From contig VMSR01000282.1 of assembly GCA_013792075.1 (NCBI GenBank), positions 1 to 64,000 on the forward strand: a stretch of DNA of 64,000 nucleotides. Reading direction: 5' to 3'. The notes beneath the pieces are model-generated. The model did not search any database. It was not told the origin of the DNA and worked only from the letters and a program-made list of their open reading frames with translations. Positions 21,626-41,727 of this stretch are shown piece after piece (positions within the stretch are counted from its first letter, which is position 1; each line of letters starts with the position of its first letter). Position numbers and translations under genes: made by a program. Origin of the DNA: Desulfobacula sp. GTDB lineage: Bacteria > Desulfobacterota > Desulfobacteria > Desulfobacterales > Desulfobacteraceae.

Positions 21626-21633
21626 GACCGGGG

Positions 21634-22041
21634 TTAAAGCCCTTTTTCCGTTGCCAGGCAAAGCCTTGAGGCGCCTGCGGCCTTGGCAATGTCCATCACT
21701 TTTACCGCTTTGTTCAGGATCACGGTTTTATCGGCCTTTACCACCACCAGTCGGTCGGTATCATTGCCGATCATCTGCCGTATCTGTGTATAAAGAGCAT
21801 CAATTGAAATTTTTTCATTTGCAATATAGGTGGCTCCTTCTTTGTCAACAAAAATAGTGATTTCCTGTTTTACCTGGGGAGCTGCAGCTTTGGCATTGGG
21901 AAGTTTCACCGTGATCCCCTCTTCCACGATAAAATTGGTGGTCAGCATAAAATAGATCAACAACAAAAAAACAATGTCAATCAGTGAGGTTAATGGCGCC
22001 TGAATCTGGTATCTATTTTTTTTGGATTTAAATGCCTTCAT
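21634..22041 (-). CDS. exbD: Biopolymer transport protein ExbD
   Basis: Proton-channel subunit of the TonB motor. With the start at 22041 (two bases after the exbB stop) it has 135 residues: a single membrane helix PLTSLIDIVFLLLIYFML carrying the essential Asp of the family (in LIDIVF), and a periplasmic domain from residue 45. An in-frame start further upstream inside exbB is less likely. It couples with ExbB and TonB encoded on either side. Confidence 0.94.
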   Translation of the reverse strand: MKAFKSKKNRYQIQAPLTSLIDIVFLLLIYFMLTTNFIVEEGITVKLPNAKAAAPQVKQEITIFVDKEGATYIANEKISIDALYTQIRQMIGNDTDRLVVVKADKTVILNKAVKVMDIAKAAGASRLCLATEKGL

Positions 22042-22043
22042 GT

Positions 22044-22655
22044 CTATAAGGGCCTTTTGGCAACGACCTTTAAAAAGGCGACACACCCATCCTGGAGCCT
22101 GGCCTCATAGGTGTCGACCTTGGCAATCAAATAACTATGGGCCACCATAGTGGGCAATGCCACGGCAAGCCCAAGGGCGGTTGTCAACATGGCTTCCCAG
22201 ATCCCGCCGGCAAGGACAGCTGCATTGACCTTGCCCCCCATCTGCTGAATCACCATAAAGGCCTTTATCATTCCGATAATGGTCCCGAGAAGCCCCAGCA
22301 AGGGAGCAATGTTGCCAATGGTGGCCAGGGTTTGAAGATAGGCGGACAACGCCCGGACTTCATTTTCAACGGCGTTTGCAATAACCGACTCCAGCATGCG
22401 GGTTTTCAAGTCTTTGGCACCAATGGCCTTGGCCAGCACCCGGCCCATGGGCGAATTGTTTTGCTGTGAAAGCCTCAGTGCCCCTTGAATATCCCCCTGG
22501 GCAACCAGCGTTGCCACTTTGTGTTCAATATCCTTTCCCCGGCTCCGGTTGATGGCATATTGAATGATCCGTTCACAGAAAATTGCCAGCACCAATACCG
22601 AGCAAAACAATATCGGAATCACCAGTATCCCGCCCTTTGATAAAAATTCCAGCAT
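22044..22655 (-). CDS. exbB: ExbB/TolQ-family proton channel protein
   Basis: Inner membrane motor protein that forms a pentamer around ExbD. The 203 residues contain three predicted membrane helices: one N-terminal (GGILVIPILFCSVLVLAIFCE), and two in the conserved MotA/TolQ/ExbB domain (LATIGNIAPLLGLLGTIIGMIKAF and GGIWEAMLTTALGLAVALPTMVAHSYL). GGAGG precedes the ATG at a normal distance. It lies 15 bp after the repeat protein gene and 2 bp before exbD. Confidence 0.95.
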   Translation of the reverse strand: MLEFLSKGGILVIPILFCSVLVLAIFCERIIQYAINRSRGKDIEHKVATLVAQGDIQGALRLSQQNNSPMGRVLAKAIGAKDLKTRMLESVIANAVENEVRALSAYLQTLATIGNIAPLLGLLGTIIGMIKAFMVIQQMGGKVNAAVLAGGIWEAMLTTALGLAVALPTMVAHSYLIAKVDTYEARLQDGCVAFLKVVAKRPL

Positions 22656-22670
22656 AACGCCTCCGGCTGA

Positions 22671-24242: not shown

Positions 24243-24647
24243 GGTACCTCTCCTGTTCCCGCACAAAAAAACCAAATATGATTTCTGGTTATTTTTGTCA
24301 AGTATTCTTCAATATATATCTCTATACAAACCATAACTCTTTAATTATTACACACAATCAGATAAAAATTATGGTATTTGCTTTTCGATGCACCCGATTG
24401 ATAAAAATTTTCTTCCCTGGAAAGAGGGAAAAGAGTGTATCAGACATCAAGCGACCCGGATATATGGTTATTTTTGGTATGTTTTGGTATAAGTTTAAAA
24501 AATTTATATTATTTTAGAACTTATATTGACAATTAGCTACAACATAACTATATCGAGATATTCTTTTAAAAAGAAGAAATTGCAGACCCACAGACAGGGA
24601 TTTAACGTTTGGGACAACAAAAATTGATCTATTTTACGGAGGAAACT
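24243..24647. other. Divergent intergenic region between the ExbBD operon and the receptor operon
   Basis: About 400 bp of AT-rich DNA without a convincing gene. It contains a tandem 10-bp repeat (TTTTGGTAT at 24472-24480 and 24482-24490) and a promoter pointing toward the receptor gene. I looked for a cobalamin riboswitch and saw no B12-box-like core. Confidence 0.6.
24526..24554 (+). promoter_or_regulatory. Putative sigma-70 promoter of the TonB receptor operon
   Basis: TTGACA (24526-24531) and TATATC (24549-24554) are separated by 17 bp, about 95 bp upstream of the receptor start. The tandem TTTTGGTAT repeats lie 36-54 bp upstream of the -35 box, a position suited to a transcription activator. 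Confidence 0.6.
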
Positions 24648-26675
24648 ATGAAAGTGACAACGCGCGTATTGTTTTATCTGATTCTCTTGATGATGATACC
24701 TGTCGGCCTGGTGCTGGCAGCAGAGGAGCAGGCAAGCCAGGTATTTGACCTGGGCCAGGTGCTGGTGGTTGGCAAATCAGATAAAACCGACAAAATCACC
24801 ACCATTGATGTGGTGTCCATGGAGGACATAAAGATGCAGGGGGCCCAGACAGCAGCTGATGCGCTGGAGCTTGTACCGGGTGTGGATATCCAGACTGCCA
24901 ACAAGGGTCAGGCAAGCCTAAAGCTTCGGGGGTTTGATCAAAGGGATGTAAAACTTTTGATTGACGGAGTTCCCGCCCATGTTTCCTATAACGGGTCCCT
25001 GGATCTCAGCCAGATTCCCGTGGATACCATCGCCAGAATCGAGGTAGTCAAAGGGGCTTCCTCTGTATTATACGGCCCCAACACCATGGGCGGGGTGATC
25101 AATATCATTACCAAAAAAGGGGGAGCGAAACCCTATACCCAAGTGTCCACCTCTTTTGGGGAAAACAATACCCAGAACTATGTGGCAAACCATGGCGGAT
25201 CTGTTGGAAAATTCAATTATTGGATCACCGGCAGCCACCGGGAATCCGACGGGTTTGAGCTGTCCGGCGATTTTAATCCCAACAATCTTCGGACAGGCCT
25301 TGGCACTGAATACAATGAAGACGGCGGCACCCGGGATTTAAGCTATTATGACAACAACACCTTTAACTCAAAAATCGGGTATGAGTATGATGCCTCCTCA
25401 AAGCTCTACCTGTCCTTTGACTACCATGACAATAAAAAGGGCTGTCCCACGGAAACCAACCGCTACTGGGAGTTTGACGAATGGAAGCAATGGCACCTGA
25501 ACCTGGTGGGCGAGCATGATTTCACCGACATTTTGACCATGAAGGCAAGGGCCTATTATGTGGACCACAATGACAGCCTCAAGGATGTGAGCTGGGATGC
25601 AAATCACACCACCAAAAGAAAATGGTTTGAAGAAAGTTCCTACGATGACTATACCCTGGGCGGGGATGTCCAGGCATACCTGGATTTTGGAGACGCAAGC
25701 CTTGTGAAGATGGGGATCACCTATATGAAGGACAACCATATCCAGCAGGACTTATACGATGCCACCACCTGGGACGTTGTCAAAAGTGGTGCCTCGGTGG
25801 GGCTTCAGCCCGAACAGGAGTATGAAGTGGATGTATACTCGGTGGGCATTGAAGATGAGGTTCGTTTTTTTGAAAAGCTATTGGTCAAGGCCGGGGTCAG
25901 CTATGATGTCCATGACCCGATCAAGGCCCATGGCGGCATAGACAGGGACAAGACCAGCACCTGGAACCCCCAGACAGGTATTGCCTATGATGTGACCGAT
26001 GATTTCAATCTCTATGCTTCCGTGGGTAAAAAGACCCGCTTCCCCCAGATGCAGGAGCTGTACAGCACCCTGTCCGGCGGAAACAAGGACCTTAAACCCC
26101 AGAAAACCATTGCCTACGAAATCGGCGGGGACAAGCGCTTTGGCGAATATGTCACATTTTCCGCAGCCGTCTTTTTCAATGATATCCAAGACAGGATTGT
26201 CAATGAAACAATTGCCGGGGTCAAAACCCAGTTAAACAAGGGAGAAACCGATATCAAAGGGATTGAAACCAGCCTGCGCATCATGACTCCCTGGCGCCTG
26301 GATGTCGGCCTGGGATATACCTATCTTACGGCCAAAGAGAGGGCAGACAGCGCCAGTGCTGAAAGGGATGCGGAATTCATCCCCGAGCACAAGGCAACCC
26401 TGGATGCCCGGTACGCCTTTGACTTTGGTTTGTCCGCCTCCTTCCAGACCATATACACGGGCGAACAGACCGATTATGACAATTCCAACAATCCGGTGAC
26501 CCTGGATGATTTTGTTCTGTGCAACTTCAAACTGAATCAGGAATTTTCATTGACGCCAAAATTGTCCACAAACATTTTCATTGAAGTTAAAAATATTTTT
26601 GATGAAGATTACGAAGAAGGCCATGGCCCCTTACCCGGCCGGGGCTTTTTGGTGGGTGCGTCACTGACCTTTTAA
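24648..26675 (+). CDS. TonB-dependent outer membrane receptor
   Basis: Outer membrane gated channel, 675 residues from the ATG at 24648, which has GGAGG just upstream. A signal peptide (to the alanines near residue 24) is followed by a TonB-box-like LGQVLVVG, a plug domain (QTAADALELVPGVDIQ, LKLRGFDQRDVKLLIDGVP, IARIEVVKGASSVLYGPNTMGGVINIITKK) and a 22-strand-type barrel ending in the outer membrane signature ...GFLVGASLTF with terminal Phe. The plug most resembles BtuB/cobalamin and siderophore receptors, but sequence alone does not fix the ligand. It heads a long co-directional gene series with importers and radical SAM enzymes. Confidence 0.95.
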   Translation: MKVTTRVLFYLILLMMIPVGLVLAAEEQASQVFDLGQVLVVGKSDKTDKITTIDVVSMEDIKMQGAQTAADALELVPGVDIQTANKGQASLKLRGFDQRDVKLLIDGVPAHVSYNGSLDLSQIPVDTIARIEVVKGASSVLYGPNTMGGVINIITKKGGAKPYTQVSTSFGENNTQNYVANHGGSVGKFNYWITGSHRESDGFELSGDFNPNNLRTGLGTEYNEDGGTRDLSYYDNNTFNSKIGYEYDASSKLYLSFDYHDNKKGCPTETNRYWEFDEWKQWHLNLVGEHDFTDILTMKARAYYVDHNDSLKDVSWDANHTTKRKWFEESSYDDYTLGGDVQAYLDFGDASLVKMGITYMKDNHIQQDLYDATTWDVVKSGASVGLQPEQEYEVDVYSVGIEDEVRFFEKLLVKAGVSYDVHDPIKAHGGIDRDKTSTWNPQTGIAYDVTDDFNLYASVGKKTRFPQMQELYSTLSGGNKDLKPQKTIAYEIGGDKRFGEYVTFSAAVFFNDIQDRIVNETIAGVKTQLNKGETDIKGIETSLRIMTPWRLDVGLGYTYLTAKERADSASAERDAEFIPEHKATLDARYAFDFGLSASFQTIYTGEQTDYDNSNNPVTLDDFVLCNFKLNQEFSLTPKLSTNIFIEVKNIFDEDYEEGHGPLPGRGFLVGASLTF

Positions 26676-26685
26676 AAAAAAAGAT

Positions 26686-26724
26686 AACTCCCGGCCCCGG
26701 GATTAATGACCGGGGCCGGGAGTT
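26686..26724 (+). other. Very stable GC-rich intercistronic hairpin
   Basis: Perfectly complementary 15-base arms at 26686-26700 and 26710-26724 enclose a nine-base loop. It lies 11 bp after the receptor stop and just before the first binding-protein gene. There is no T-tract on the plus strand, so it is more likely an mRNA stabiliser, processing site or partial attenuator that sets receptor expression above that of downstream genes. On the minus strand the stem is followed by a T-rich run. Confidence 0.75.
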
Positions 26725-26740
26725 GAAAGACACCACACCC

Positions 26741-27853
26741 ATGACAAAAAAACGAATTTTCCGGCTCTTTGTTTCTATCTTTTTTATACTCGGCCTGGCC
26801 AGGCTTTATCTTACCCCAGGTGCTGATACACCGGTCGGGAAAGCATCCCGCACCATTACGGACATGAAGGGCCGCACCTTTGACGTGGCAGATCCTTTGG
26901 AGCGCATCGCCCTGCTGGGAGGCCCCACGGGCCAGGTGGCCTTTATTCTCGGCATCCAGGACAGGCTCTGCGCCGTGACCCATACCCTGAAAATGTCAAA
27001 ACTGGTTCAGGAAAACTATCCGCCCATCCGGAACCTGCCCGGCCCCCGGACCACCTCGGGCAGCATCAATATTGAAGAACTGATTTTGTCAAACCCGGAT
27101 CTTGCCATTGCCGGGGACATTGACGGCGGGATTGTCCTTACAAAAACCCAGATCCCCGTGGCCTTTCTGGAGGATAGCATGGGAGAGGGGATGGTGGATA
27201 TCAAGCGGGAAATCCGGTTTTACGGGTATCTTTTTGAGACCCCGGAACGGGCGGGGGCCTATGTGGCCTTTCTGGACAGGATCATGGCTCTGGTAAGGGA
27301 AAGAACAAAGGATATCCCTGCAGCACAGCGCAAAAAGGTCTTCCAGGGATACAGCCCCAGCCACCTGGTGACTCTGGGGGGGGACACCTTTATGCAGGAA
27401 CGGATAGCGCTTGCCGGCTGCCGGAATGCAGCCGAGACCGTCACCACCATCGGCCAGCGGACCGGACTGCATTCCGGCCTGGGTGAGATCTCCATGGAAC
27501 AGGTTTTGGACTGGAACCCGGATATTCTCATCATCAATTCCGGCACTGTGGAAGATATCACCCAAAATTCCCAATGGCAAAATATCCGAGCGGTGCAACA
27601 CCGGCAGATTTATGCCCAGCCGGCCGGGGTCTTTATTTTCAACCGGCCCACGGCGGAATCGGCAGTGATTTTCCCCCTATGGCTGGCCAGCATTGCCTAT
27701 CCGGAACGGTTTGCAGATCTGTCCGTGCCGGCTCTGGTCAAAGAATTTTACAAAGACATTTTTACCTTTGACCTGAGTGACCGGCAGGTCAAAGATATTT
27801 TGTCGGGCACCTATGAATTTAGGATGATGAAGGGGATTAAAAATAAAGGATAA
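26741..27853 (+). CDS. Periplasmic substrate-binding protein of a BtuF/FecB-type importer (set 1)
   Basis: Binding component of an ABC importer, 370 residues from ATG 26741 (an in-frame TTG at 26723 is the alternative). A hydrophobic N-terminal segment (FRLFVSIFFILGLARLYL) without a lipobox cysteine suggests either cleavage or a membrane anchor. The body is of the class III helical-backbone type: TITDMKGRTFDV and LERIALLGGPTG start the N-lobe, NPDLAIAG ends it, and NPDILIINSG marks the C-lobe. It ends just before the permease gene. The closing region reads FNRPTAESAV, unlike the WDxPxP motif of the other two binding proteins here, so its ligand may differ. Confidence 0.88.
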   Translation: MTKKRIFRLFVSIFFILGLARLYLTPGADTPVGKASRTITDMKGRTFDVADPLERIALLGGPTGQVAFILGIQDRLCAVTHTLKMSKLVQENYPPIRNLPGPRTTSGSINIEELILSNPDLAIAGDIDGGIVLTKTQIPVAFLEDSMGEGMVDIKREIRFYGYLFETPERAGAYVAFLDRIMALVRERTKDIPAAQRKKVFQGYSPSHLVTLGGDTFMQERIALAGCRNAAETVTTIGQRTGLHSGLGEISMEQVLDWNPDILIINSGTVEDITQNSQWQNIRAVQHRQIYAQPAGVFIFNRPTAESAVIFPLWLASIAYPERFADLSVPALVKEFYKDIFTFDLSDRQVKDILSGTYEFRMMKGIKNKG

Positions 27854-27854
27854 C

Positions 27855-28880
27855 ATACAAAAACCCGTCAAACCCGCCCTGACACCGGAATCCTGGATCC
27901 GTGTCTTTCTGATCCTCCTTGTGCTGGTCGTATTTTTCTCCCTATGCCTTGGCCGGGTGACCATTCCCTTTGCCACGGTAGTCAAAATTTTATTTTCATC
28001 CATCCTGCCCCTGGAGCCGGATTGGTCGGCCACGACCTATTCCGTGGTTGTTGACGTTCGGCTCCCGCGAATTCTGGCAGGCCTTATGGTGGGAGCGGCC
28101 CTTTCCATATCCGGGGCCTCTTTCCAGGGAGTGTTTCAGAATCCTCTGGTCAGCCCCCACATCCTGGGCGTGGCATCGGGTGCCGGATTCGGGGCTGGTC
28201 TTGCCATTCTTTTGTTTGACAATCTTGTGCTGGTCCACCTGGTCTCTTTTGCCTTCGGCCTTGTGTCCGTTGGCATGACCTATGCCCTGTCCCGGGTGTA
28301 TAAAACCACCCCCATCCTCATGCTGGTCCTTTCGGGCATTGTGGTGGGGTCTTTATTTTCCGCTTTAACCTCGTTTTTAAAATATATTGCCGATCCCATG
28401 AACAAGATGCCGGCCATTGTTTTCTGGCTTTTGGGATCTTTAAACCATGTATCTTTCAAGGATATTTTGATTACGACCCCGATCTTTATTGTCTGTATTG
28501 CAACCCTGCTCATGGTCCGCTGGCAGATCAACCTGCTGGCCATGGGAGAAGAGGATGCAAAATCCCTGGGGGTCAACACGGAAATCCTGAAAACCCTTAT
28601 CATTGTCAGTGCCACCATTGCCACGGCATCGGCTGTTTGCATCTCCGGCATCATCGGCTGGATCGGCATCATGATTCCCCATATCGGGCGCCTGATTGTG
28701 GGACCGGACCACAAATATCTTCTGCCCATCTCCATGCTCATCGGGGCCGCCTACCTGGTCGCCGTGGATACCATTGCCAGGACCGCCCTTGCAACCGAAA
28801 TCCCCATCGGCATTTTAACCGCCATTTTCGGTGCCCCCGTGTTTGCCTTTTTGCTCAGAAAAACCCAGAAGGCAGGGTGA
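27855..28880 (+). CDS. BtuC/FecCD-type ABC permease (set 1), start uncertain
   Basis: Inner membrane channel subunit with about ten helices. Family signatures are VVDVRLPRILAGLMVGAALSISGASFQGVFQNPLVSPHILGVASGAGFG and GIIGWIGIMIPHIGRLIVG. The first standard start codon in frame is GTG at 27921, but it lies inside the first membrane helix and would remove its front half. No ATG, GTG or TTG occurs between the in-frame TGA at 27828 and 27921. The frame is open upstream and an ATA at 27855 follows AAGGA by four bases, so a non-standard start there (341 residues) or a CTG at 27879 is plausible; coordinates here use 27855. The minimum supported extent is 27921-28880. Confidence 0.85.
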   Translation: MQKPVKPALTPESWIRVFLILLVLVVFFSLCLGRVTIPFATVVKILFSSILPLEPDWSATTYSVVVDVRLPRILAGLMVGAALSISGASFQGVFQNPLVSPHILGVASGAGFGAGLAILLFDNLVLVHLVSFAFGLVSVGMTYALSRVYKTTPILMLVLSGIVVGSLFSALTSFLKYIADPMNKMPAIVFWLLGSLNHVSFKDILITTPIFIVCIATLLMVRWQINLLAMGEEDAKSLGVNTEILKTLIIVSATIATASAVCISGIIGWIGIMIPHIGRLIVGPDHKYLLPISMLIGAAYLVAVDTIARTALATEIPIGILTAIFGAPVFAFLLRKTQKAG

Positions 28881-28883
28881 ACC

Positions 28884-29759
28884 ATGGCAGGCAGCATTAA
28901 AATTAAAAACCTCTCCTTCAGTTATACGAATACCAGACAAGATTTGATTTTTTCACAGGTCAGTTTTGATCTTTCTGCGGGAGAGGTCTTTTGTCTGCTG
29001 GGCCCCAACGGATCGGGAAAATCCACCCTGCTCAAGTGCATTGCCAGGCTGCTGACCCCCTTGACCGGAAGCGTGCTGCTGGATGGTGAAAACCTGAGCC
29101 AGGCCAGGCCTTCAAAAATTGCCAGGCTGCTGGGATTCGTTCCCCAGAGCCTTGTGTCCGCCTTCCCCTTTACCGTGGCCGATATTGTGATCATGGGACG
29201 GGCCTCCCGGATCGGCATGGTCTCTTCCCCGTCCAAAATAGACCGGGACCATGCATGGGCTTCCATGGAAAGGATCGGCATTGCCCATCTGGCCAAAAGA
29301 CCCTGTAACCGCTTGTCCGGCGGAGAATGGCAGATGGTTCTGATTGCACGGGCCCTGACCCAGTCCCCCAGGGTGCTGCTTTTGGACGAACCCACCTCCC
29401 ATCTGGACCTGGGCAACCAGATCAAAATTCTTCAAGTGGTGGACAGCCTTTCCAGGGAGGGCATGACCATCCTCATGGCATCCCATTTTCCAGACCATGC
29501 CTTTTTAAATGCCCACAAGGTGGGTATCCTCAAAGACCAGTCCCTGATCGCCCTGGGGGATCCGGACCAGGTGCTGACCCAAGAGATCCTGGCGGCCACC
29601 TATGGCATTGCCATACGCGTGCTCCGGGTCCTTGACGGCGTGGACCGGAAGATCTGTGTGCCCCTGTTAAAAAAAACAAATAATTGCCATAAAGCCCAAG
29701 AAGAAAACCCTTCCGGTGCTTGCCGCATAAAGATGAAAGGTGACAAATGGAACAGCTGA
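28884..29759 (+). CDS. BtuD/FecE-type ABC ATPase (set 1)
   Basis: ATP-binding subunit of the first importer, 291 residues. Walker A is GPNGSGKSTLL (near 40), the Q-loop is FVPQSLVSAFP, the signature is LSGGEWQMVLIARA (Trp where Arg is usual), and Walker B is VLLLDEPTSHLDLG with a switch histidine in MASHFP. A C-terminal tail of about 35 residues after the core is rich in Lys, Cys and Asn and unlike the family. Start ATG lies three bases after the permease stop; its end overlaps the methyltransferase start. Confidence 0.93.
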   Translation: MAGSIKIKNLSFSYTNTRQDLIFSQVSFDLSAGEVFCLLGPNGSGKSTLLKCIARLLTPLTGSVLLDGENLSQARPSKIARLLGFVPQSLVSAFPFTVADIVIMGRASRIGMVSSPSKIDRDHAWASMERIGIAHLAKRPCNRLSGGEWQMVLIARALTQSPRVLLLDEPTSHLDLGNQIKILQVVDSLSREGMTILMASHFPDHAFLNAHKVGILKDQSLIALGDPDQVLTQEILAATYGIAIRVLRVLDGVDRKICVPLLKKTNNCHKAQEENPSGACRIKMKGDKWNS

Positions 29760-30583
29760 CCGATTGGTTTCGATTATGGGAACAGCTTTCGGACATTCAA
29801 TCCCGGGCCTTTGAAAGGCAAAGGGAACACCGGGAAGAAGATTTCTGGAAACACAAGGCCCGGCAGTTTGACAAAATGGTGGAAGACCGGTGGGCCAAAC
29901 CGGATTCGTCCCGGGATTTTCTTGTGGAAAAATTCAAGGAGAATCCCGGTTCAACCCTGCTGGACATTGGGGCCGGAACGGGCAAATGGTCCCTTCTGGT
30001 CGCCCCCCATGCGTCAAAGGTCACGGCCCTGGAGCCCTCATCGGCCATGCAGCAGGTATTAAGAGAAAAAATTCTGGGAGAACAGATCGCCAATATTGAG
30101 ATTCTCACCGGCACCTGGCCCGAACACCCCATCACCCCCCATGATTATGTCCTGGCCTCCCATTCCATGTACGGGGTAAAAGATTTCAGGGGTTTTGTTG
30201 ACAAAATGACGGCCACCGCCACCCGGGCCTGTATCCTGCTGCTGCGGGCGCCCCTTGCCGATGCCGTCATGGCCAAAGCCTCTCTCAGGGTCTTTGGCCA
30301 GCCCTATGACAGCCCCAACTTCCAGGTGGCCTATAACATGCTGCTGGCCATGGATATCTATCCGGATGTGATCATGGAAGCCGACGGCACCTGGCCGGAC
30401 TGGACCCATCCTTCTTTTGAAGAGGCCCTGGCGGATCTGAAAAACCGCCTGGACCTTGGGGAGAACCGTGAACATGACACCTTTTTGTCAACCCTATTGG
30501 AAAAAAATCTCAGCTGGACTGACGGCAGGGCTGTCTGGCCTTCGGGCAACCGGTCCGCCCTGGTGTATTGGGAGGTGGGATGA
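29747..30583 (+). CDS. Class I SAM-dependent methyltransferase (between the two importers)
   Basis: A 278-residue cytoplasmic methyltransferase. The SAM-binding motif I LLDIGAGTGKWSLL is at about 66-79, followed by VTALEPSSAMQQ (motif II acidic residue) and a YVLASHSMYGVKD motif-IV-like stretch. An N-terminal helical extension (FERQREHREEDFWKHKARQF) precedes the fold. It overlaps the ATPase gene by 13 bases and the next binding protein by four (ATGA), so it is an integral part of the importer operon. The substrate is unknown; methylating or demethylating the imported ligand is the simplest guess. Confidence 0.88.
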   Translation: MEQLTDWFRLWEQLSDIQSRAFERQREHREEDFWKHKARQFDKMVEDRWAKPDSSRDFLVEKFKENPGSTLLDIGAGTGKWSLLVAPHASKVTALEPSSAMQQVLREKILGEQIANIEILTGTWPEHPITPHDYVLASHSMYGVKDFRGFVDKMTATATRACILLLRAPLADAVMAKASLRVFGQPYDSPNFQVAYNMLLAMDIYPDVIMEADGTWPDWTHPSFEEALADLKNRLDLGENREHDTFLSTLLEKNLSWTDGRAVWPSGNRSALVYWEVG

Positions 30584-31608
30584 AGGATCTTAACAGCATC
30601 AGAATATTTTTGGCTTTGGGTTTATTCCTTTTGTGCATCCCCGGGTGCACGTTTTCAGACGATCCTGGTAAAAACCTTGTCACCATCACGGATCAGCTGG
30701 GCCGGCAGGTGGCTGTTCCCAAAAAGCCTGCACGCATTGTAGCCCTCCACCATTTTGGCGGAAAAATCATCTATGCCCTGAACCAGCAGCATCTGCTGGT
30801 TGAACGCAGCATCTACGGCAGGGAGGCCATTGCCAGAAGCCGTGTGGACAAGGTGTTTGCCGCCCTTCCCAGCATGATCCAGAACCATGGCTATAATGTC
30901 GAAGGCCTGGTCAGCCTGAATCCGGACCTTGTTTTTGCCTATGCCTCCATGGGCCCGTCTGAAATGAAACTATTTGAAAATACCGGTATACCGGTGGTTG
31001 CCGTAAAAGGTGAAACCTTTGAAGAAAGCATTGAAGCCATCCGGTTGATGGCAGGCATCCTTGGGTGCAGGGAAAAGGGGGATGCCTATATCCGCGCCTG
31101 CCAGAATCTTCTGGACAGGGTGCGGCAACGGTTAAAAGGCCAGGTCACCCACCCCCGAAAAGTGATGTTTGCAGGCCCCAAAAGCATTTATTCCGTGGCC
31201 ACGGGCAACATGCTTCAAAGCCAGATCCTGGCCCTTTCCGGCGGGATAAATGTGGCCGTTGAACTCAGCGGATTCTGGGCGGATGTCTCCCCAGAACAGA
31301 TCGCCCGATGGAATCCGGATGTTATTTTTTTAGGATCATACCTGGATGTCTATGGCAAAGAAAAAATTTATGCCAATCCCCAGTTTGCGACCATCTCGGC
31401 CGTTAAAAACAAACAAATCCATACGTTTCCCTCCAATGTGGGATGGTGGGATTATCCGGCCCCCCATTGCGTGCTGGGGGTGGTCTGGTCTGCCAAAACC
31501 CTTTATCCAAAACTCTTCTCGGATATGGACATGAAAGAAGTGGCCAATACCTTTTATGAAAACTTTGGGGGGATTTCCTTTGAAGCCCTGGGGGGAAAGC
31601 TCAATTGA
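30580..31608 (+). CDS. Lipoprotein substrate-binding protein of a BtuF/FecB-type importer (set 2)
   Basis: A 342-residue binding protein. The ATG at 30580 follows GGAGG and overlaps the preceding stop. The signal peptide ends in a lipobox CIPGC (about residue 23), so it is lipid-anchored. The N-lobe starts ITDQLGRQVAVPKKPARIVALHHFGG and the C-lobe contains NPDVIFLGSYLDVYG and the motif WWDYPAPHCVLGVVWSAKTLYP. This last motif recurs in the third binding protein and in the radical SAM fusion downstream. Its stop overlaps the TTG start of the permease. Confidence 0.92.
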   Translation: MKDLNSIRIFLALGLFLLCIPGCTFSDDPGKNLVTITDQLGRQVAVPKKPARIVALHHFGGKIIYALNQQHLLVERSIYGREAIARSRVDKVFAALPSMIQNHGYNVEGLVSLNPDLVFAYASMGPSEMKLFENTGIPVVAVKGETFEESIEAIRLMAGILGCREKGDAYIRACQNLLDRVRQRLKGQVTHPRKVMFAGPKSIYSVATGNMLQSQILALSGGINVAVELSGFWADVSPEQIARWNPDVIFLGSYLDVYGKEKIYANPQFATISAVKNKQIHTFPSNVGWWDYPAPHCVLGVVWSAKTLYPKLFSDMDMKEVANTFYENFGGISFEALGGKLN

Positions 31609-32624
31609 AAAAAAAATGGGGACTCATACTCTTGGTGTTGCTTTCAGCAGTGTTCTTCTGCCTGTGCATCGGGCGCTATCCCATCCTTCCCGCCCATGTG
31701 GCAGGACTTTTGCTGGCAGGCCTCGGCATTGAAACCCGCTCCTTTGAGGTACCCCGGGAGATGATGATGATTTTCTGGAATATCCGGGTCCCCAGAATTA
31801 TCCTGAGCCTTTTGGTGGGAGGGGGCATTTCAACGGCCGGAGCCGTCTTCCAGGCATTGTTCAGAAACCCCCTGGCTGCCCCTGATATCCTAGGGGTGAC
31901 CGCAGGCGCCTCTTTTGGCGCGGCCACGGCCATCATGGTGCTTGCACCCCTGGCCTGGGTCATTCAAACCAGCGCCTTTGTTTTTGGCATTACCGCCGTA
32001 TTCCTGGCCTATGTCCTGGCCTCCTGGAGCCGGGACCATTCGCCTTCGGTGCTGGTGATTTCAGGGATTGTTATCTCTGCTGTCTTCCAGGCCGGGCTGT
32101 CGTTTACAATGTATCTGGCCAATCCCTATGACCAGCTGGCCCAGATCATCTTCTGGACCATGGGCAGCTTTAATGCCGCCTCCTGGACCAAGGTGGGGAT
32201 ACTGCTTTTTCTGGTTACACCGGGTGTCATTTTGATGGTTGTTTTTTCCTGGCGCCTGAACCTCATGACCCTTGAAGAAGAGGATGCGCTGTCCATGGGC
32301 ATCCATATTGTCCAATGGCGCATCTTTTACGTCCTTTTGGCCACCCTCATGGTGGCCTGTTGTGTGGCCTCGGTGGGATCGGTTGCCTGGATCGGCCTCA
32401 TCGTCCCCCATATTGCAAGGTATCTGGCAGGGTCGGAACATGGCAGACTCATCCCTGTCACCGCCGTCCTGGGAGCCATTTTTCTCATGGTCATGGACAC
32501 CATGGCCAGAAGCATCATGCTGTCTGAAATTCCCATCAGCATTGTGACTTCCATATTTGGGGCGCCCTTTTTGGGATACCTGGTCATCCGTACAGGGAAA
32601 GAAAGCGTGAAACATGAATCTTAA
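31605..32624 (+). CDS. BtuC/FecCD-type ABC permease (set 2)
   Basis: Ten-helix inner membrane channel of 339 residues. It starts at TTG 31605, overlapping the stop of the binding protein gene (TTGA); no ATG lies near in frame. Signatures include IRVPRIILSLLVGGGISTAGAVFQALFRNPLAAPDILGVTAGASFG and SVAWIGLIVPHIARYLAG. It resembles the set-1 permease along its whole length, so the two sets probably arose by duplication followed by divergence. Confidence 0.93.
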   Translation: MKKKWGLILLVLLSAVFFCLCIGRYPILPAHVAGLLLAGLGIETRSFEVPREMMMIFWNIRVPRIILSLLVGGGISTAGAVFQALFRNPLAAPDILGVTAGASFGAATAIMVLAPLAWVIQTSAFVFGITAVFLAYVLASWSRDHSPSVLVISGIVISAVFQAGLSFTMYLANPYDQLAQIIFWTMGSFNAASWTKVGILLFLVTPGVILMVVFSWRLNLMTLEEEDALSMGIHIVQWRIFYVLLATLMVACCVASVGSVAWIGLIVPHIARYLAGSEHGRLIPVTAVLGAIFLMVMDTMARSIMLSEIPISIVTSIFGAPFLGYLVIRTGKESVKHES

Positions 32625-33417
32625 GGTTGACACCCTGTCCGCGGGATATGGAAAAACCCCTGTGCTGCGCCAGATCAGCCTTTGCGTGGGGCCGGGGAAA
32701 ATCTGTGCCCTCATGGGCCGGAACGGGTCGGGCAAAACCACCCTGCTGCGCTGTATCAACGGGGTGCTGCCGCCACGGGCCGGTCAGGTGTTGCTCATGG
32801 GGCAGGATATCACCCTTCTGAACCGCAAGAGGATCTCCCGGCATATCAGCCTGGTTCCCCAGGTGTATGTTTCCCCTTTTTCCTTTTTGTGCATGGACAT
32901 GGTGCTCATGGCCTGTGCCCCGCGGATCCATCCCTGGGCGGCCCCGGGTAAAATCGACCGAAAAAAAGCACTGAAAGTGATGGCAGAAACCGGCATTGAC
33001 CATATGGCCCAACGTCCGTTCAACCTGCTTTCCGGAGGTGAGCGCCAACTGGTCATGCTGGCCCGGGGGCTGTTCCAGGACACTCCCATCCTTCTTTTGG
33101 ACGAGCCCACCGCCCACCTTGATTTTACCAACCAGCACCGGATCATGGCCCTGGTGCGCAAACTGGCCAAAAAAAGACAGATGACCGTGCTTATCACACT
33201 CCACGACCCCAATCTGGCCCTTTACTATTGCGATGAGGTGATCCTGATCCACGCGGGACAGGTGGCAGCCTTTGGTCCGACAAAACCCACCTTGACCGAT
33301 TCGGTTCTGTCCACGGTGCTGGGAGACAATATCCAAAGGGATATCACCCACAAAGGTCTGAGTGTCGTTACCCCGAAACAGATAATATCCAAAAAAAATA
33401 CAGAGGTGACCCCATGA
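32614..33417 (+). CDS. BtuD/FecE-type ABC ATPase (set 2)
   Basis: A 267-residue ATPase with a complete motif set: Walker A GRNGSGKTTLLRC (about 37-49), Q-loop LVPQVYVSPF, signature LSGGERQLVMLARG, Walker B ILLLDEPTAHLDF and switch histidine in ITLHDPN. It starts within the end of the permease gene and overlaps the first radical SAM gene by four bases (ATGA). Confidence 0.95.
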   Translation: MNLKVDTLSAGYGKTPVLRQISLCVGPGKICALMGRNGSGKTTLLRCINGVLPPRAGQVLLMGQDITLLNRKRISRHISLVPQVYVSPFSFLCMDMVLMACAPRIHPWAAPGKIDRKKALKVMAETGIDHMAQRPFNLLSGGERQLVMLARGLFQDTPILLLDEPTAHLDFTNQHRIMALVRKLAKKRQMTVLITLHDPNLALYYCDEVILIHAGQVAAFGPTKPTLTDSVLSTVLGDNIQRDITHKGLSVVTPKQIISKKNTEVTP

Positions 33418-34436
33418 AGTGTAATTATTGTGAACGAAAGTGTGAGCTTGCCAATGGCAAAAGCTTTTGCGGCATGTTTCAGGAAGAAAAGGGAGCCGTG
33501 GTTGAAAAATACCCGGACAAATGGTCTACCTATTTTGCCTCCCGGGTGGAATCGGTCCCGTTTTACCACGCCTATCCGGGCTCCCGGTCCATGATCATCG
33601 GGACGGCCGGCTGCAATTTCCGGTGTCGGTACTGCGCCAATGGATTTATTGCCTGTCAGAACCCGGACCATGTACAGGACGTGATGTATGAGTTTGCCCC
33701 TGAAAAGCTGGTGGCCATGGCCCAAAAGCTCGGGTGCCACAACATCATTTTCAATGTGAACGAACCGGCCGTGTCCCTGCCCAGTCTTTTGCGGGTAAAA
33801 AGATATGCACAAAAGGCAGATATCCCCATGGGATGTCTGACCAACGGGTACACCACCCAAGAGGCCACCCGCACGATGGCCGAGATTTTTTCTTTTGTCC
33901 ATGTGGGGCTCAAGGGATTTTCAGATGCCTTTTACCAAAAATATGTGGGCATAGATTCTATTGATCCCATTCTTCGCAACATCAACATGTTTGCAGACCG
34001 CTGCCATGTGGAAATTGCCTCTCCGGTGATCGAAGATGTCAACGACCATGAATTGCATGAAATTGCCCAGTTTATCCACGACATCGACCCGCAAATTCCC
34101 TGGCACGTGTTCAGGCTTCTGCCCGAGCACAATATGAAAGGCTCTTTGTATCCGAATATTGAACGCATGAGCCTGGCCCTTGAATCCTCCAGAAAATTAT
34201 TGCCCTATATCTATTTTCATAATTTTGTAGGCTCGGACTGGGTGAACACCCTGTGCCCCCATTGCAAGACCCCTGTCATCAAACGCTTCAGCCTGGGCTG
34301 TTCAGGTGACCGCCTGGACAAATTTTTAGCCCCGGACAATATCTGTTTTGTGTGCAAAACACCCATTGCCATGCTGGGCACCAAGGTGGCCTGGGATGCG
34401 AATCAGAAAAAACAAAAAGGAGAACAAACAATATGA
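33414..34436 (+). CDS. Radical SAM enzyme, AmmeMemoRadiSam/PflA-related
   Basis: A 340-residue radical SAM protein. The 4Fe-4S motif CNFRCRYC is at C67, C71 and C74. An N-terminal four-cysteine knot (C3, C6, C10, C19) and a C-terminal group (CPHC, then CFVC, about 280-325) suggest auxiliary metal or Fe-S sites. Other barrel motifs are IIFNVNEPAVSLPSLL and MGCLTNGYTT. The arrangement is like the AmmeMemoRadiSam/PflA-like proteins, but no MEMO or AMMECR1 partner lies nearby. It is embedded between the importer ATPase and the unassigned 397-residue protein, overlapping both. Confidence 0.88.
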   Translation: MKCNYCERKCELANGKSFCGMFQEEKGAVVEKYPDKWSTYFASRVESVPFYHAYPGSRSMIIGTAGCNFRCRYCANGFIACQNPDHVQDVMYEFAPEKLVAMAQKLGCHNIIFNVNEPAVSLPSLLRVKRYAQKADIPMGCLTNGYTTQEATRTMAEIFSFVHVGLKGFSDAFYQKYVGIDSIDPILRNINMFADRCHVEIASPVIEDVNDHELHEIAQFIHDIDPQIPWHVFRLLPEHNMKGSLYPNIERMSLALESSRKLLPYIYFHNFVGSDWVNTLCPHCKTPVIKRFSLGCSGDRLDKFLAPDNICFVCKTPIAMLGTKVAWDANQKKQKGEQTI

Positions 34437-35626
34437 GCCTGGCAATTATTGATGCACGGGAATGGCAGAACCAGTTTGACCTTGAAACAGGCCAGAAAAA
34501 ACAGGACACTGATCCTCTGGTCCAAATGGTGAGCCGGGTGCTTCATGACAACCCCTATCCCGGGGATGTGGACAAACAGGCCAATGCCTGGGTCACCCGG
34601 ACGGCCTTGGATCTGATAGACGGCTATCACCCGGATCTGGTCTGCTTAAGTTATGTCCAGCAGTTTTTTGCCAACCGCCATTTTGATCATCCCAAACAGA
34701 TCCGGGAAAAAATGTATGGCGCGGCCATGGGGGAAGCCCAAAAATTTATCCAGACCTCGGGATATACACCGGTGATTGTCGGCACAGGCGGCCTGGTTCC
34801 CCTGGAGGGGGAGATGGATTTATCCGGCCTGGACGGTCTTGCCATTTGTTCCAACTGGTCGGCCCGTTACTGCGGGATTCATTCCCCCAGCTTACGGGAC
34901 CTGGACGTGATTGCATCCCTCAAATCCCTTGGAAAAATTGAGGTCATGATTTCCAAAGAAGAATGGATCAACCTGTTTTTATCCCAACAGCCAGATCTTG
35001 ACATGCCCCAGGATGAAGGTCTCATGCCGGATTTTCTGGTGGCGGCCAGACAGGGCCTGGCCTTTAAGACCATGGGTACCACCCTGAGAAAACCCATAAA
35101 CATTCCGGAAAACAATTTTCAGGTTCCCGTGTACACCCCCCTGGGAAAGGTTGAGGATCTGAGGGATATCAAAAACTTGATCCGATCCAACCTATCCAAC
35201 CATAAAATCGCCCTGATCCTGGTGGAAGGGGTGGGATCTGCCCATTTTCCAGACAACACCTTTTCGTGTAAAAACGGGGTAAACTGGTTCTGCAACGAAC
35301 CGGGGGATGCCTTTTACCTGACCCTTTCCACGGGAAAACACCAGGTGTTTGCCTATCCTGCCGGATACCGCTCCTTTGACCAGGATGCAGAAAACATCCG
35401 CTTCCCCTTTTCCGGTTACATGACCGCCATCCCCCAAAACACCCTGGCCCTGGATTTGCCGGAAAAAAGCATTGCCGTTGGTAACCGAAGCATGTTCATG
35501 CACATGGTATTCGGCGCCGATATCGGGATCGAATGCTTTGCCCGGAACCTGTTCAACCAAGGCTGCATGGGTGTTATCCACGACAAATCCAAATATGGAC
35601 AGCCGCCAAAAGGAAAACTTCGATGA
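34433..35626 (+). CDS. Protein of unknown function in the radical SAM operon
   Basis: I do not recognise this 397-residue protein with confidence. It starts at ATG 34433 after AAGGAG and has no signal peptide or membrane helix, so it is cytoplasmic. A segment YHPDLVCLSYVQQFFANRH and an ensuing VIVGTGGLVPLEGEMDLSGLDG stretch faintly recall alkaline-phosphatase-superfamily phosphodiesterases. The C-terminal third has conserved-looking NRSMFMHMVFGADIGIECFARNLFNQGCMG. The gene overlaps its neighbours by four bases on both sides, so its product is made with the radical SAM enzyme and the exported deaminase-like protein. Confidence 0.55.
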   Translation: MSLAIIDAREWQNQFDLETGQKKQDTDPLVQMVSRVLHDNPYPGDVDKQANAWVTRTALDLIDGYHPDLVCLSYVQQFFANRHFDHPKQIREKMYGAAMGEAQKFIQTSGYTPVIVGTGGLVPLEGEMDLSGLDGLAICSNWSARYCGIHSPSLRDLDVIASLKSLGKIEVMISKEEWINLFLSQQPDLDMPQDEGLMPDFLVAARQGLAFKTMGTTLRKPINIPENNFQVPVYTPLGKVEDLRDIKNLIRSNLSNHKIALILVEGVGSAHFPDNTFSCKNGVNWFCNEPGDAFYLTLSTGKHQVFAYPAGYRSFDQDAENIRFPFSGYMTAIPQNTLALDLPEKSIAVGNRSMFMHMVFGADIGIECFARNLFNQGCMGVIHDKSKYGQPPKGKLR

Positions 35627-36285
35627 TCCGAAAAACTTTTTGTGTCTGCCTTGGGCTGGTATTTGTAGCCGGCACCCTCTGGGCCAGGACCAAGGAACCC
35701 CAGGAAAAACTGAACCTGCTGGAAAAAAGAATCCTTGCCTACCAGATCCTTCCGGCGTTTTCAGATGACATTTATGGGTTGATGGTGGTAAAAGCGGCCC
35801 TGCAGTCCCTGGAAGAAGGATCCGGCGGCATCGGGGCCTGTCTGGTGGACACCACCAGCGGCAGGGTGGTTGAAACAGGACGGAACCGCCAGTTTTCACC
35901 CCATTTCAGAAGCGACCTCCATGGAGAAATGGATCTGCTCAACCGTTACGAAGACCGGGTTGAAAAAACAAACACCCCCCAGAATGGCGAAGACCCAAGG
36001 GCGTGTAAAAACCTGGTTTTAATCACCTCGGTGGAACCCTGTCCCATGTGCCTGACCCGGATCATCAACTCAGGCATTAAAACCGTGCTCTATGTGGTGG
36101 CAGACGAACAGGGAGGCATGGCCACCCGGTTGGACCATCTTCCGCCCTTCTGGCGGGAGTTTGCCGCTGACCGGGAATTCAAACAGGCCGACTGCGCCCC
36201 CGAACTGCGGCAGATCGCCCATGAGCTGTTTCATTTTTCCAACAGAAGTTTTGCCAAAAACCGAAAAAAGGAAGCAGAAAAATGA
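35623..36285 (+). CDS. Cytidine-deaminase-fold protein with an N-terminal signal peptide
   Basis: A 220-residue zinc-dependent deaminase-like protein. The catalytic motif is HGE (H100, G101, E102) where HAE is usual, with the second zinc site PCPMC (139-143), so the active site looks intact. Unlike cytosolic deaminases it begins with a basic and hydrophobic stretch (RKTFCVCLGLVFVAGTLWA) that ends in an ALWAR-type cleavage site, so the protein is probably exported to the periplasm. The start is the ATG at 35623 overlapping the previous stop; an in-frame start at 35533 would hide the signal peptide. The substrate is unknown, but its position suggests it acts on the ligand before or during import. 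Confidence 0.82.
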   Translation: MIRKTFCVCLGLVFVAGTLWARTKEPQEKLNLLEKRILAYQILPAFSDDIYGLMVVKAALQSLEEGSGGIGACLVDTTSGRVVETGRNRQFSPHFRSDLHGEMDLLNRYEDRVEKTNTPQNGEDPRACKNLVLITSVEPCPMCLTRIINSGIKTVLYVVADEQGGMATRLDHLPPFWREFAADREFKQADCAPELRQIAHELFHFSNRSFAKNRKKEAEK

Positions 36286-36938
36286 ACAACCCGTATACCG
36301 ATGACAGCAAAGACCGAAAAGCGGCCATGGACATGGACACTATTTCCAAAACGGTTTTTGCCAAGGTCTATCCGCTGATTGCCCGGCAGATCCTGGTTGA
36401 TCATAAAATTTGCGCCGGAACCTGTATCGATCTTGGCAGCGGCCCTGGGACCCTGTCCATTTGCCTTGCCCAAATCACGGACCTGCAAATTTTTGCCCTG
36501 GACCAGTCCCGGCACAGCCATGCCATTGCAACTGCCAACATCAGGGAACAGGGCCTGGAAAAAAGGATCACCCCGGTGACGTCAGATATTTGCGACCTGC
36601 CCTTTGGGGACAATTATGCAGATCTCATGGTGTCAAGGGGGTCCATCTTTTTCTGGCAAGACCTGAAGGGTGCCTTCAACGAAATATACCGGGTGTTGAA
36701 GCCCGGCGGGAAAACCCATATCGGTGGGGGCTTTGGTTCCAAAGAATTAAAAGTATCCATTTTTGAACAAATGGCCAAAAAAGGGGACTCCTTTGCCAGA
36801 CAAAGCAAAGACCGGATGAGCCCTGAAACCCTTGACCGGATCAAAACCGCCCTGGACAACTCCCATGCCTCCCGCTACACCATCAGTCTCTCCGGTGGCG
36901 GGTTCTGGATTCACATCACCAAAGAGGAACATTTATGA
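36282..36938 (+). CDS. Class I SAM-dependent methyltransferase (second of the operon)
   Basis: A 218-residue methyltransferase with motif I CIDLGSGPGTLSICLAQ (about 48-64), a VTSDICDLPFGDNYADLMVSRGSIFFW motif III/IV region and RVLKPGGKTHIGGG (typical UbiE/Methyltransf_11 post-motif). No sign of a signal peptide, so it acts in the cytoplasm. It overlaps the deaminase gene and the second radical SAM gene by four bases each, and probably modifies a product of the radical SAM step. Confidence 0.9.
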   Translation: MNNPYTDDSKDRKAAMDMDTISKTVFAKVYPLIARQILVDHKICAGTCIDLGSGPGTLSICLAQITDLQIFALDQSRHSHAIATANIREQGLEKRITPVTSDICDLPFGDNYADLMVSRGSIFFWQDLKGAFNEIYRVLKPGGKTHIGGGFGSKELKVSIFEQMAKKGDSFARQSKDRMSPETLDRIKTALDNSHASRYTISLSGGGFWIHITKEEHL

Positions 36939-38671
36939 AATGCCGAATTTGCGAATTGGGCTGTGAAATCAAACAAGGCGGCGTGGGCAGATGCCGCATG
37001 ATGACCCATCAAGACACTGAAATTAAGGAAAGGTTTCCCCACAGCTATTCCACCCTGTTTCCCATTTCCATTGAAACCATGCCCTGCCTGCATTTTTATC
37101 CCAACCATAAATTTTTGCAGGTTTCCTCCATGGGCTGCAATTTCTCCTGCCCCGGATGTATTTCCGAGATCCTGACCATGGGGGAGGACGCCATCTTCGG
37201 GGCATTGAAAAAACAGACCCCTGAAAAAATCATTGAGAAGGCCTTAAAAGAAAAGTGTAAAGGCATTGCCTTTTGCATCAATGATCCCACAGTCTCATTT
37301 TTCAGTTTTCTTGAGCTGGCCCGAATCTCCCGGAAAAACAATCTTCTGGTGGGGTTTTCAACCAATGGATATTTCACCGAACAGGCCCTGGAACACCTTA
37401 TTCCCCTGACGGATTTTGTCAACATCGGGTTTAAAGGGGCTTCGGATGATGCCTATAAAGACTGCGGAGTACCGTCGTCTGCACCGGTTTTCAGAAACTT
37501 CAAACGCTTGTTTGAGGCGGGCATTCATGTGGAAGCCGCCATCATCCACATGAAAGACCGGGAAGATGACGTTCAGAAAATTGCCCGGTTCGTCGCCGCT
37601 TTGTCCAGGGATATCCCCCTCCAGGTCATGCGCTTTGTCCCCTTTGGAGAAGCCGATATAAAATTTGAACCCACCATCAAAGAATCGACTGCCCTGTGCG
37701 AAACAGTGGGCCAAACAATGCCTTATGTCTATTTGTTCAACGCCCCGGGAACTTCCCTGTTGAACACCCGCTGTCCGGACTGCAAAACCCCTGTGATCTT
37801 CCGGGAATTGTTCGGCCCCATGGGCGCCCGAAACATGCAGGCCCTGCCCGATGCCGCCTGCGCCTGCGGCAAACCGGTTCCCTTTAAAGGGGGGTATGCC
37901 CTAAACAGATACGATGAACACGGTTTTTTCGGGGGCTACCGCACGACCCGGGCGTTTGAAATGCTCCACGCAATTCTGGTCTGCATTGGTGCCGATGATC
38001 CTGAAAAAATATCCCGCTTGTGGGCAGACCTCATGGAAACCGACTATCTGAAAGACTTTCATGACCTGGTTCAATTGCCCCACGCCTATGGAAAAATTAT
38101 TGACCGCCTGGCCGAAAAAACCCATTGTATTGAACGGGGCAATCTGCTCAAGAACACCCTCCAAAAGACACTGGACCTGATCACGTCCAAAAGCCGTAAT
38201 CTCACCCGGCCCAAGGTTTACTATGCCATGGGCTATCCCTTGTTTGCCCTGAATGCAGAACGCTTTGAAACCAACCTGGTCGAGGCTGCCGGCGGCACCT
38301 GCACGAACAAAGGCCTGACCCGGAAGGGCAAACCCGGCGTGACCATCTCCCGGGAGGAATTCATGGCAATGAACCCGGATATTATCTTTATTTCAGGCTT
38401 TTTGTCCTGCCCGGTATCTGATTTTTATGACGATTGCATCACCCGTGACCTCGGGGTTCCTGCCGTTAAAAACCGGCAAATTTATGATCACTTTCCCCTC
38501 TGGGATTTTGGCAGCCCCCGGTGGATGCTGGGATTGATGCACATTGCCAATACCCTTCACCCCGAAATTTTTAATTTTGACATGGAAAAAGAAGCAAACG
38601 CCTTTTATACCCTTTTTTTTAACCGGCCCTTTGACGCAAAAAAAGCCAACCGCTCCTTCTACAGGGTGTGA
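36935..38671 (+). CDS. Radical SAM enzyme fused to the C-terminal lobe of a BtuF-type binding protein
   Basis: A 578-residue two-part protein. Residues 1-320 are a radical SAM enzyme of the same type as the one at 33414: N-terminal cysteines C3, C6, C10, C20, the cluster motif CNFSCPGC (C68, C72, C75), and C-terminal CPDC and CAC groups (280-311). Residues from about 385 to 578 match the linker helix and C-lobe of the operon's substrate-binding proteins, including NPDIIFISGF and WDFGSPRWMLGLMHIANTLHP; the N-lobe of that fold is missing and about 65 unassigned residues lie between. No signal peptide is present, so this binding-like lobe sits in the cytoplasm. Last gene of the operon. Confidence 0.85.
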   Translation: MKCRICELGCEIKQGGVGRCRMMTHQDTEIKERFPHSYSTLFPISIETMPCLHFYPNHKFLQVSSMGCNFSCPGCISEILTMGEDAIFGALKKQTPEKIIEKALKEKCKGIAFCINDPTVSFFSFLELARISRKNNLLVGFSTNGYFTEQALEHLIPLTDFVNIGFKGASDDAYKDCGVPSSAPVFRNFKRLFEAGIHVEAAIIHMKDREDDVQKIARFVAALSRDIPLQVMRFVPFGEADIKFEPTIKESTALCETVGQTMPYVYLFNAPGTSLLNTRCPDCKTPVIFRELFGPMGARNMQALPDAACACGKPVPFKGGYALNRYDEHGFFGGYRTTRAFEMLHAILVCIGADDPEKISRLWADLMETDYLKDFHDLVQLPHAYGKIIDRLAEKTHCIERGNLLKNTLQKTLDLITSKSRNLTRPKVYYAMGYPLFALNAERFETNLVEAAGGTCTNKGLTRKGKPGVTISREEFMAMNPDIIFISGFLSCPVSDFYDDCITRDLGVPAVKNRQIYDHFPLWDFGSPRWMLGLMHIANTLHPEIFNFDMEKEANAFYTLFFNRPFDAKKANRSFYRV

Positions 38672-41700: not shown

Positions 41701-41727
41701 ATGGTCCTGCCCCTTTACCAGGGAAAT

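Follow-up and report, generated by a model that had tools for sequence, protein, structure and literature searches.

A TonB and type II ABC uptake locus with two radical SAM proteins in Desulfobacula sp., a candidate system for an organic metal complex

Described relatives and layout of the operon

The window analyzed here is a stretch of 64,000 nt from Desulfobacula sp. (assembly GCA_013792075.1, contig VMSR01000282.1, positions 1 to 64,000 of the forward strand), and our subject is an operon at 24648-38671 that joins TonB-dependent and ATP-binding cassette (ABC) transport genes to radical S-adenosylmethionine (SAM) proteins and methyltransferases. The described importer nearest to its transport part is MolBC-A (HI1470-1472) of Haemophilus influenzae, a type II system for molybdate and tungstate with which the operon shares a FecCD-type permease, an ATPase and a TroA-type substrate-binding protein (SBP). 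MolA is the SBP that serves this BtuCD-type importer, and the system takes up the free oxyanion (PMC4031551), whereas we consider an organic complex for the operon. Loci of anaerobes that combine metal transporters with FmdE or DUF364 genes were noted in 2010 (PMC2954201, PMC2954224). According to the accessible text of these papers, DUF364 genes adjoin transporters for tungstate, molybdate and vanadium, with a structure-based proposal that their products might help make pterin- or flavin-type chelators (PMC2954201), and FmdE genes mostly adjoin transporters of metal ions (PMC2954224). Such loci resemble those studied here in FecBCD importers, methyltransferases and nearby DUF364 or FmdE genes. 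The window operon differs in lacking both families and in adding two radical SAM architectures (rS1-U397 and rS2-SBP) and an exported deaminase, which the accessible portions of the two papers do not mention. Judged by sequence, the whole appears to be a variant of this functionally uncharacterized kind of metal-uptake locus, with rS1-U397 and rS2-SBP as elements for which no description was found. Tentatively, and with a little less than even confidence, we read the operon as a TonB/type II ABC system for uptake and processing of a metal complex, most likely molybdenum or tungsten with an organic ligand.

Inspection of open reading frames and family profiles gave 13 genes head to tail on the + strand. 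They encode a TonB-dependent receptor, two complete FecBCD/BtuFCD-type importers, two class I methyltransferases (MT1 and MT2), two radical SAM proteins, an exported deaminase-fold protein and a protein of 397 residues, U397. An earlier note on this DNA had listed the same receptor, importers, enzymes and exported deaminase-like protein, in agreement with the family profiles; it spoke of fourteen genes, although its own list sums to thirteen. It had also reported start/stop overlaps at most junctions from the first ATPase onward, and all of these junctions do overlap, seven by 4 nt and two by 11 and 13 nt. The genes are as follows.

24648..26675, + strand: TonB-dependent outer membrane receptor (PF07715 plug, PF00593 barrel)
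26741..27853, + strand: SBP1, type II (TroA/BtuF-like) SBP (PF01497; profile match to MolA 3psa, E 2.1e-37)
27843..28880, + strand: permease 1, FecCD family (PF01032); start uncertain, the first canonical start being GTG at 27921
28884..29759, + strand: ABC ATPase 1 (PF00005)
29747..30583, + strand: MT1, class I SAM methyltransferase (PF13489/PF13649)
30580..31608, + strand: SBP2, lipoprotein type II SBP (PF01497; MolA 3psa, E 1.8e-42; lipobox Cys invariant)
31605..32624, + strand: permease 2, FecCD family (PF01032)
32614..33417, + strand: ABC ATPase 2 (PF00005)
33414..34436, + strand: rS1, radical SAM protein (PF04055), related to TIGR04337 but below its cut-off (134 bits vs 220)
34433..35626, + strand: U397, partner of rS1, resembling a degenerate and apparently circularly permuted member of the alkaline phosphatase superfamily (predicted model, pLDDT 83)
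35623..36285, + strand: exported deaminase-fold protein with intact zinc site (PF00383)
36282..36938, + strand: MT2, class I SAM methyltransferase (PF08241)
36935..38671, + strand: rS2-SBP, radical SAM protein carrying most of an SBP fold, without signal peptide (PF04055 plus PF01497 C-lobe)

Radical SAM proteins and their partners

The last gene, which the earlier note had described simply as a second radical SAM protein, encodes such a domain only in residues 1 to about 330, where the VIA Z score is 18.9 to pyruvate formate-lyase activating enzyme (PFL-AE, over 34-267) and 16.6 to NifB and the cluster motif is intact (CNFSCPGC). The stretch from residue 340 to about 570 aligns structurally with SBPs of type II ABC systems along ~215 residues (VIA Z over 340-567 of 20.6 to the SBP 4hn9 and 18.0 to MolA 3psa), so that the enzyme is fused to most of an SBP fold. 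The protein begins MKCRICELGC and has no signal peptide, and its binding-protein fold is therefore expected in the cytoplasm, joined to the enzyme. Our census covered one phylum, Desulfobacterota, in which full-length relatives of rS2-SBP occur in at least 8 further genomes, mostly adjoining a TonB receptor, an importer and an MT2 homologue. No description of this architecture was found in the open-licence literature. The fusion offers a direct handle on function, as one ligand should bind both importer and enzyme.

Two relatives deserve separate mention. The rS2-SBP gene of genome G280 (L064 9640-12030) contains an in-frame TAG, which marks either a broken gene or an assembly error. Genome G252 (L059 7363-9732) has, next to rS2-SBP, what looks like a set for cytoplasmic metal handling: an SBP_bac_6 protein that seems to lack a signal peptide, an orphan ABC ATPase with no permease, and a CobW/HypB-type GTPase.

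The cluster motif of rS1 is likewise intact (CNFRCRYC, C-x3-C-x2-C). Every U397 found lies directly after rS1 or is fused to it, the fusion of about 668 residues occurring in one order. A seeming triple fusion of permease, rS1 and U397, first seen at loci L016/L017, was rejected: its N-terminal part had been read in the wrong frame, and from the real start, MNYPLTTLYPG, the fusion consists of rS1 and U397. Searches of Pfam, NCBIfam and PDB sequences with U397, in natural and permuted order, gave no sequence match, and to that extent the protein remains the unassigned member of the earlier note's list; part of its predicted fold, by contrast, appears to match the alkaline phosphatase superfamily. 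Residues 6-255 of the AlphaFold model (15 homologues, pLDDT 83) superpose on residues 146-407 of phosphonoacetate hydrolase 1ei6 (VIA Z 9.8, 215 residues), and most other VIA rows likewise place the N-terminal part of the model on the C-terminal part of NPP enzymes. Profile comparison aligned the C-terminal part of U397 with the N-terminus of alkaline phosphatase-type proteins and its middle with their C-terminal half, at weak scores (P 0.01 and 0.07). The D-H pair of the SDHG metal site is missing from the aligned stretch in every homologue, which reads GTGG, GTGD or similar. U397 thus seems similar, in part of its fold, to the phosphonoacetate hydrolase/NPP branch but differs from it in its apparently swapped halves, in the lost D-H pair and in the lack of any sequence-profile match. 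The model suggests that it is probably a circularly permuted, catalytically altered member of the alkaline phosphatase fold class. For the rS1-U397 architecture, too, no description was found in the open-licence literature.

Both radical SAM proteins resemble the TIGR04337 enzyme of the AmmeMemoRadiSam system, which occurs with MEMO and AMMECR1, and match nearly its full domain, including the N-terminal cysteine motif. Their scores of 134 (rS1) and 102 (rS2) bits do not reach the cut-off of 220, however, and in a tree they fall outside the generic TIGR04337 clade, in separate clades; MEMO and AMMECR1 are missing among the Pfam matches of the operon. By these comparisons rS1 and rS2 are relatives, and not members, of the AmmeMemoRadiSam family. 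The deaminase-fold protein carries a signal peptide, and its zinc motif (H100-x-E102 and P139-C140-x-x-C143) is invariant in five homologues.

Conservation and further parts of the system

The core set SBP2-permease 2-ATPase 2-rS1-U397 was found in Desulfobacteraceae and Desulfotignum assemblies, in genome G522 of the same family as the window, and in genomes of another order. The earlier note would have been refuted had the genes not been conserved together elsewhere; the recurrence of this core in other families and in another order does not refute it. By this comparison the gene set is real and conserved in sulfate-reducing bacteria. It is also rare: even sampling of the phylum gave 5 carriers among 297 genomes, against 2 among 242 for the window's order and 8 among 24 for the order to which genome G230 belongs. 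This patchy distribution suggests horizontal movement or loss. A search of plasmid records gave no match, and the open-licence literature yielded no account of an operon like this one.

The locus of G522 is an unbroken run on a single strand (+), in which 24 genes were counted: DUF364, a D-x-D-x-D-G protein, ExbB, ExbD, TonB, an importer and the TonB receptor, followed by all later genes, with an extra importer before MT1. Of the genes that this run adds, the window has orthologues of the D-x-D-x-D-G protein, of ExbB, ExbD and TonB and of an importer, but not of DUF364.

20927..21661, - strand: TonB (PF03544); orthologue co-operonic in G522
21634..22086, - strand: ExbD; co-operonic G522 orthologue 76% identical
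22044..22655, - strand: ExbB (PF01618); co-operonic G522 orthologue 73% identical
22671..24275, - strand: exported protein of 534 residues, rich in D-x-D-x-D-G repeats; 38% identical orthologue between DUF364 and ExbB in G522
55875..56909, + strand: SBP of a third importer, displaced in the window genome; 60% identical to the SBP within the G522 operon
56903..57940, + strand: permease of the third importer; 69% identical to the G522 operon copy
57931..58755, + strand: ATPase of the third importer; 62% identical to the G522 operon copy

The block at 20927-24275 is oriented divergently from the operon. Because the counterparts of the TonB-ExbB-ExbD block and of the third importer are co-operonic with the rest in G522, we count both as parts of the same system. 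The earlier note placed the system at 24648-38671, which is correct for the operon but leaves out the parts at 20927-24275 and 55875-58755. With a plug/barrel receptor, TonB-ExbB-ExbD and sets of PF01497, PF01032 and ATPase proteins (two in the operon, the third at 55875-58755), the transport side belongs, by its protein families, to the class that pairs TonB with type II ABC (BtuFCD/FecBCD) transport.

Several other genes accompany these loci. Two membrane proteins of unknown role lie 3' of the third importer in the window. A small P-loop NTPase (THEP1-like in L034) adjoins the last SBP, after the operon, in several loci of one order (L017, L034-L038). A TiaS-like protein with a DDTD...GTG motif recurs beside the TonB/DUF364 part of loci (L014 13499-14278, L079 8393-9292).

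Candidate metal and proposed function

Uncharacterized structural-genomics entries aside, MolA is the best match in the profile searches with both operon SBPs (E 1.8e-42 for SBP2, 2.1e-37 for SBP1). Nickel SBPs match more weakly (2.7e-23 and 1.1e-17, respectively), BtuF poorly (5.7e-10 and 2.5e-5), and SBPs for haem and siderophores fall far below MolA. MolA is therefore the best characterized relative of SBP1 and SBP2 with a solved structure, in addition to being a strong fold match of the rS2 C-domain. The SBP of the third importer, run as a control on the MolA match, also ranks MolA third; it is not an independent control, because the third importer belongs to the same system.

Gene context was examined at 21 rS1-U397 and rS2-SBP loci in 19 genomes, using marker families within 20 kb. 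DUF364 ('putative heavy-metal chelation') was present at 8 of the 21 loci against 0.41 expected, FmdE at five (0.56 expected) and ModA at two (0.24 expected), while FmdE itself had ModA no more than 5 kb away in 6 cases out of 21, with 0.14 expected. The simulated probabilities of these counts are optimistic because the counts pool related genomes. Individual loci contain further molybdenum genes: a MOT1-type molybdate transporter lies within the gene run of G532, ModABC and an HTH-PBP_like regulator stand beside rS2-SBP in G252, and a molybdenum hydroxylase is encoded upstream of the operon in G522. In G537, two molybdopterin oxidoreductase parts, ModA, FmdE, an MT1 homologue and a FecBCD importer occur within about 20 kb of U397; the MT1 homologue (49% identical) adjoins ModABC-FmdE-FecBCD. 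Formate dehydrogenase is among the genes sometimes found near the loci, and the window genome has one FmdE gene, beside MobB. The context suggests that molybdenum or tungsten is probably the leading candidate for the metal of the ligand. Near rS1-U397 in G224 (L014 3602-5353), a SUOX-like Oxidored_molyb domain is fused to a tetrapyrrole methylase domain.

Regulatory searches gave little. They gave no cobalamin riboswitch in the window and no other Rfam control of the operon, no Fur box with up to 3 mismatches allowed, and no inverted repeats upstream of 24648; promoter and terminator scans stayed near the shuffled background. Cobalamin riboswitches were also absent from 19 of 20 related loci scanned, and the lone one, in G280, lies after rS2-SBP and before CbiK.

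The proposal of a processed molybdenum or tungsten complex must be held with caution, as several observations weigh against it besides the pooling of related genomes. The MolA subfamily is broad and includes binders of nickel and of iron-siderophores, so the match does not fix the ligand. Neither DUF364 nor FmdE lies within 20 kb at 13 of the 21 loci, and the window operon itself lacks FmdE, DUF364 and any molybdenum gene. The window genome has a TupA-type tungstate importer with a TTTS motif and does not depend on the operon for tungsten; the idea that it has no other molybdenum or tungsten importer was dropped, since ModA is missing but TupA is present. The fold assignment of U397 comes from a predicted model, the profile comparison being weak by itself. 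Finally, the rS2-SBP locus of G280 adjoins CbiK and CbiL with a cobalamin riboswitch, and these genes would be compatible with making a metallophore for secretion as well, though no exporter is seen in the operon.

In that last alternative, the main rival and in our view a rather unlikely one, the enzymes would build a small metallophore (e.g., pterin- or flavin-like) that is exported by another system and reimported with its metal through the receptor and importers. Loci for metallophores often combine synthesis with uptake, biosynthetic pathways commonly employ methyltransferases and radical SAM enzymes, the pterin-related enzyme QueE is among the radical SAM fold matches, and the chelator role proposed for DUF364 in the accessible text of PMC2954201 would suit such a pathway. 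Processing is nevertheless preferred, not strongly, because the operon contains neither an exporter nor a scaffold-forming enzyme (nonribosomal peptide synthetase, opine synthase or precursor of a ribosomally synthesized and post-translationally modified peptide). The deaminase moreover bears a signal peptide, and the presence of an SBP fold on a cytoplasmic enzyme is no less consistent with recognition of a ligand that has been imported.

The remaining alternatives concern other ligands, and both are disfavored because the expected regulatory sites are missing and the SBP matches are poor. A TonB receptor with FecBCD is the classic layout for iron, and the Peripla_BP_2 and FecCD families are known mainly from iron uptake, but import of an iron-siderophore or haem, with the enzymes stripping iron from the ligand, appears improbable given the low rank of haem and siderophore SBPs, the lack of a Fur-box match in the window and neighboring genes that indicate molybdenum or tungsten and not iron. 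Salvage of a corrinoid or other tetrapyrrole that is remodeled after uptake could draw on the BtuFCD-type importers, on the tetrapyrrole methylase fusion near rS1-U397 in G224 and on CbiK, CbiL and the riboswitch beside rS2-SBP in G280. We consider it very improbable, as both SBPs match BtuF poorly and the window and nearly all scanned loci lack a cobalamin riboswitch, the single one preceding CbiK. The earlier note had proposed uptake and chemical alteration of a metal chelate or tetrapyrrole, or salvage of a cofactor; the co-occurrence data and the rS2-SBP fusion support uptake and processing of a chelate, whereas the missing riboswitch and the poor BtuF matches speak against a tetrapyrrole or B12. 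Its further statement that known loci lack such ligand-processing enzymes needs qualification in view of the FmdE/DUF364 loci of anaerobes, as far as the accessible text of PMC2954201 and PMC2954224 describes them; no functional characterization of such loci was found.

Returning to uptake and processing of a molybdenum or tungsten complex, we hypothesize that the complex would cross the outer membrane through the TonB-dependent receptor, driven by the adjacent ExbB-ExbD-TonB. The exported deaminase may remove an amino group of the ligand in the periplasm, after which the MolA-type binding proteins would pass the complex to the FecCD-type importers. Once the complex is in the cytoplasm, its ligand would be altered or broken by both radical SAM enzymes together with MT1 and MT2, which would free the metal. 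The binding-protein fold of rS2, a protein that lacks a signal peptide, suggests that the enzymes act on the transported ligand, and rS2 may recognize the complex by this copy of the fold. rS1 would act with U397, whose apparently phosphatase-like fold, its metal site lost, might bind either the ligand or an oxyanion. The analysis itself establishes the gene content with the parts of a route across both membranes, its conservation, the fusions, the predicted folds, the intact catalytic motifs and a non-random molybdenum/tungsten context; the identity of the metal, breakdown as opposed to synthesis, the subcellular placement of the steps and all reactions in this scheme are what we infer.

Molybdenum and tungsten are scarce and hard to use in sulfidic water, and sulfate reducers depend on enzymes of these metals such as formate dehydrogenase. 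To our knowledge, the known uptake routes for both carry bare oxyanions, and MolBC-A lacks a TonB receptor as well as radical SAM enzymes, methyltransferases and a deaminase. A TonB-dependent route with ligand processing would, if true, change the view of how anaerobes acquire molybdenum and tungsten. It would also give a testable function to the orphan families of such loci, namely DUF364, FmdE, the TIGR04337-like radical SAM proteins and the 397-residue family. The more general idea is that sulfate reducers and related anaerobes import these metals through a TonB receptor in organically complexed form, besides the oxyanions (bound to a dedicated metallophore or as metal-pterin that has been shed), and dismantle the complex in the cytoplasm by radical chemistry, with an enzyme bearing the importer's recognition fold. 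We consider it unlikely as it stands.

Elsewhere in the window, a run of genes on the - strand at 38699-42507 encodes a ComA-like phosphosulfolactate synthase, a histidine-phosphatase-like protein, an SLC13-type anion transporter and an ABC_sub_bind protein. It may represent a pathway for sulfolactate together with the transporter that serves it.

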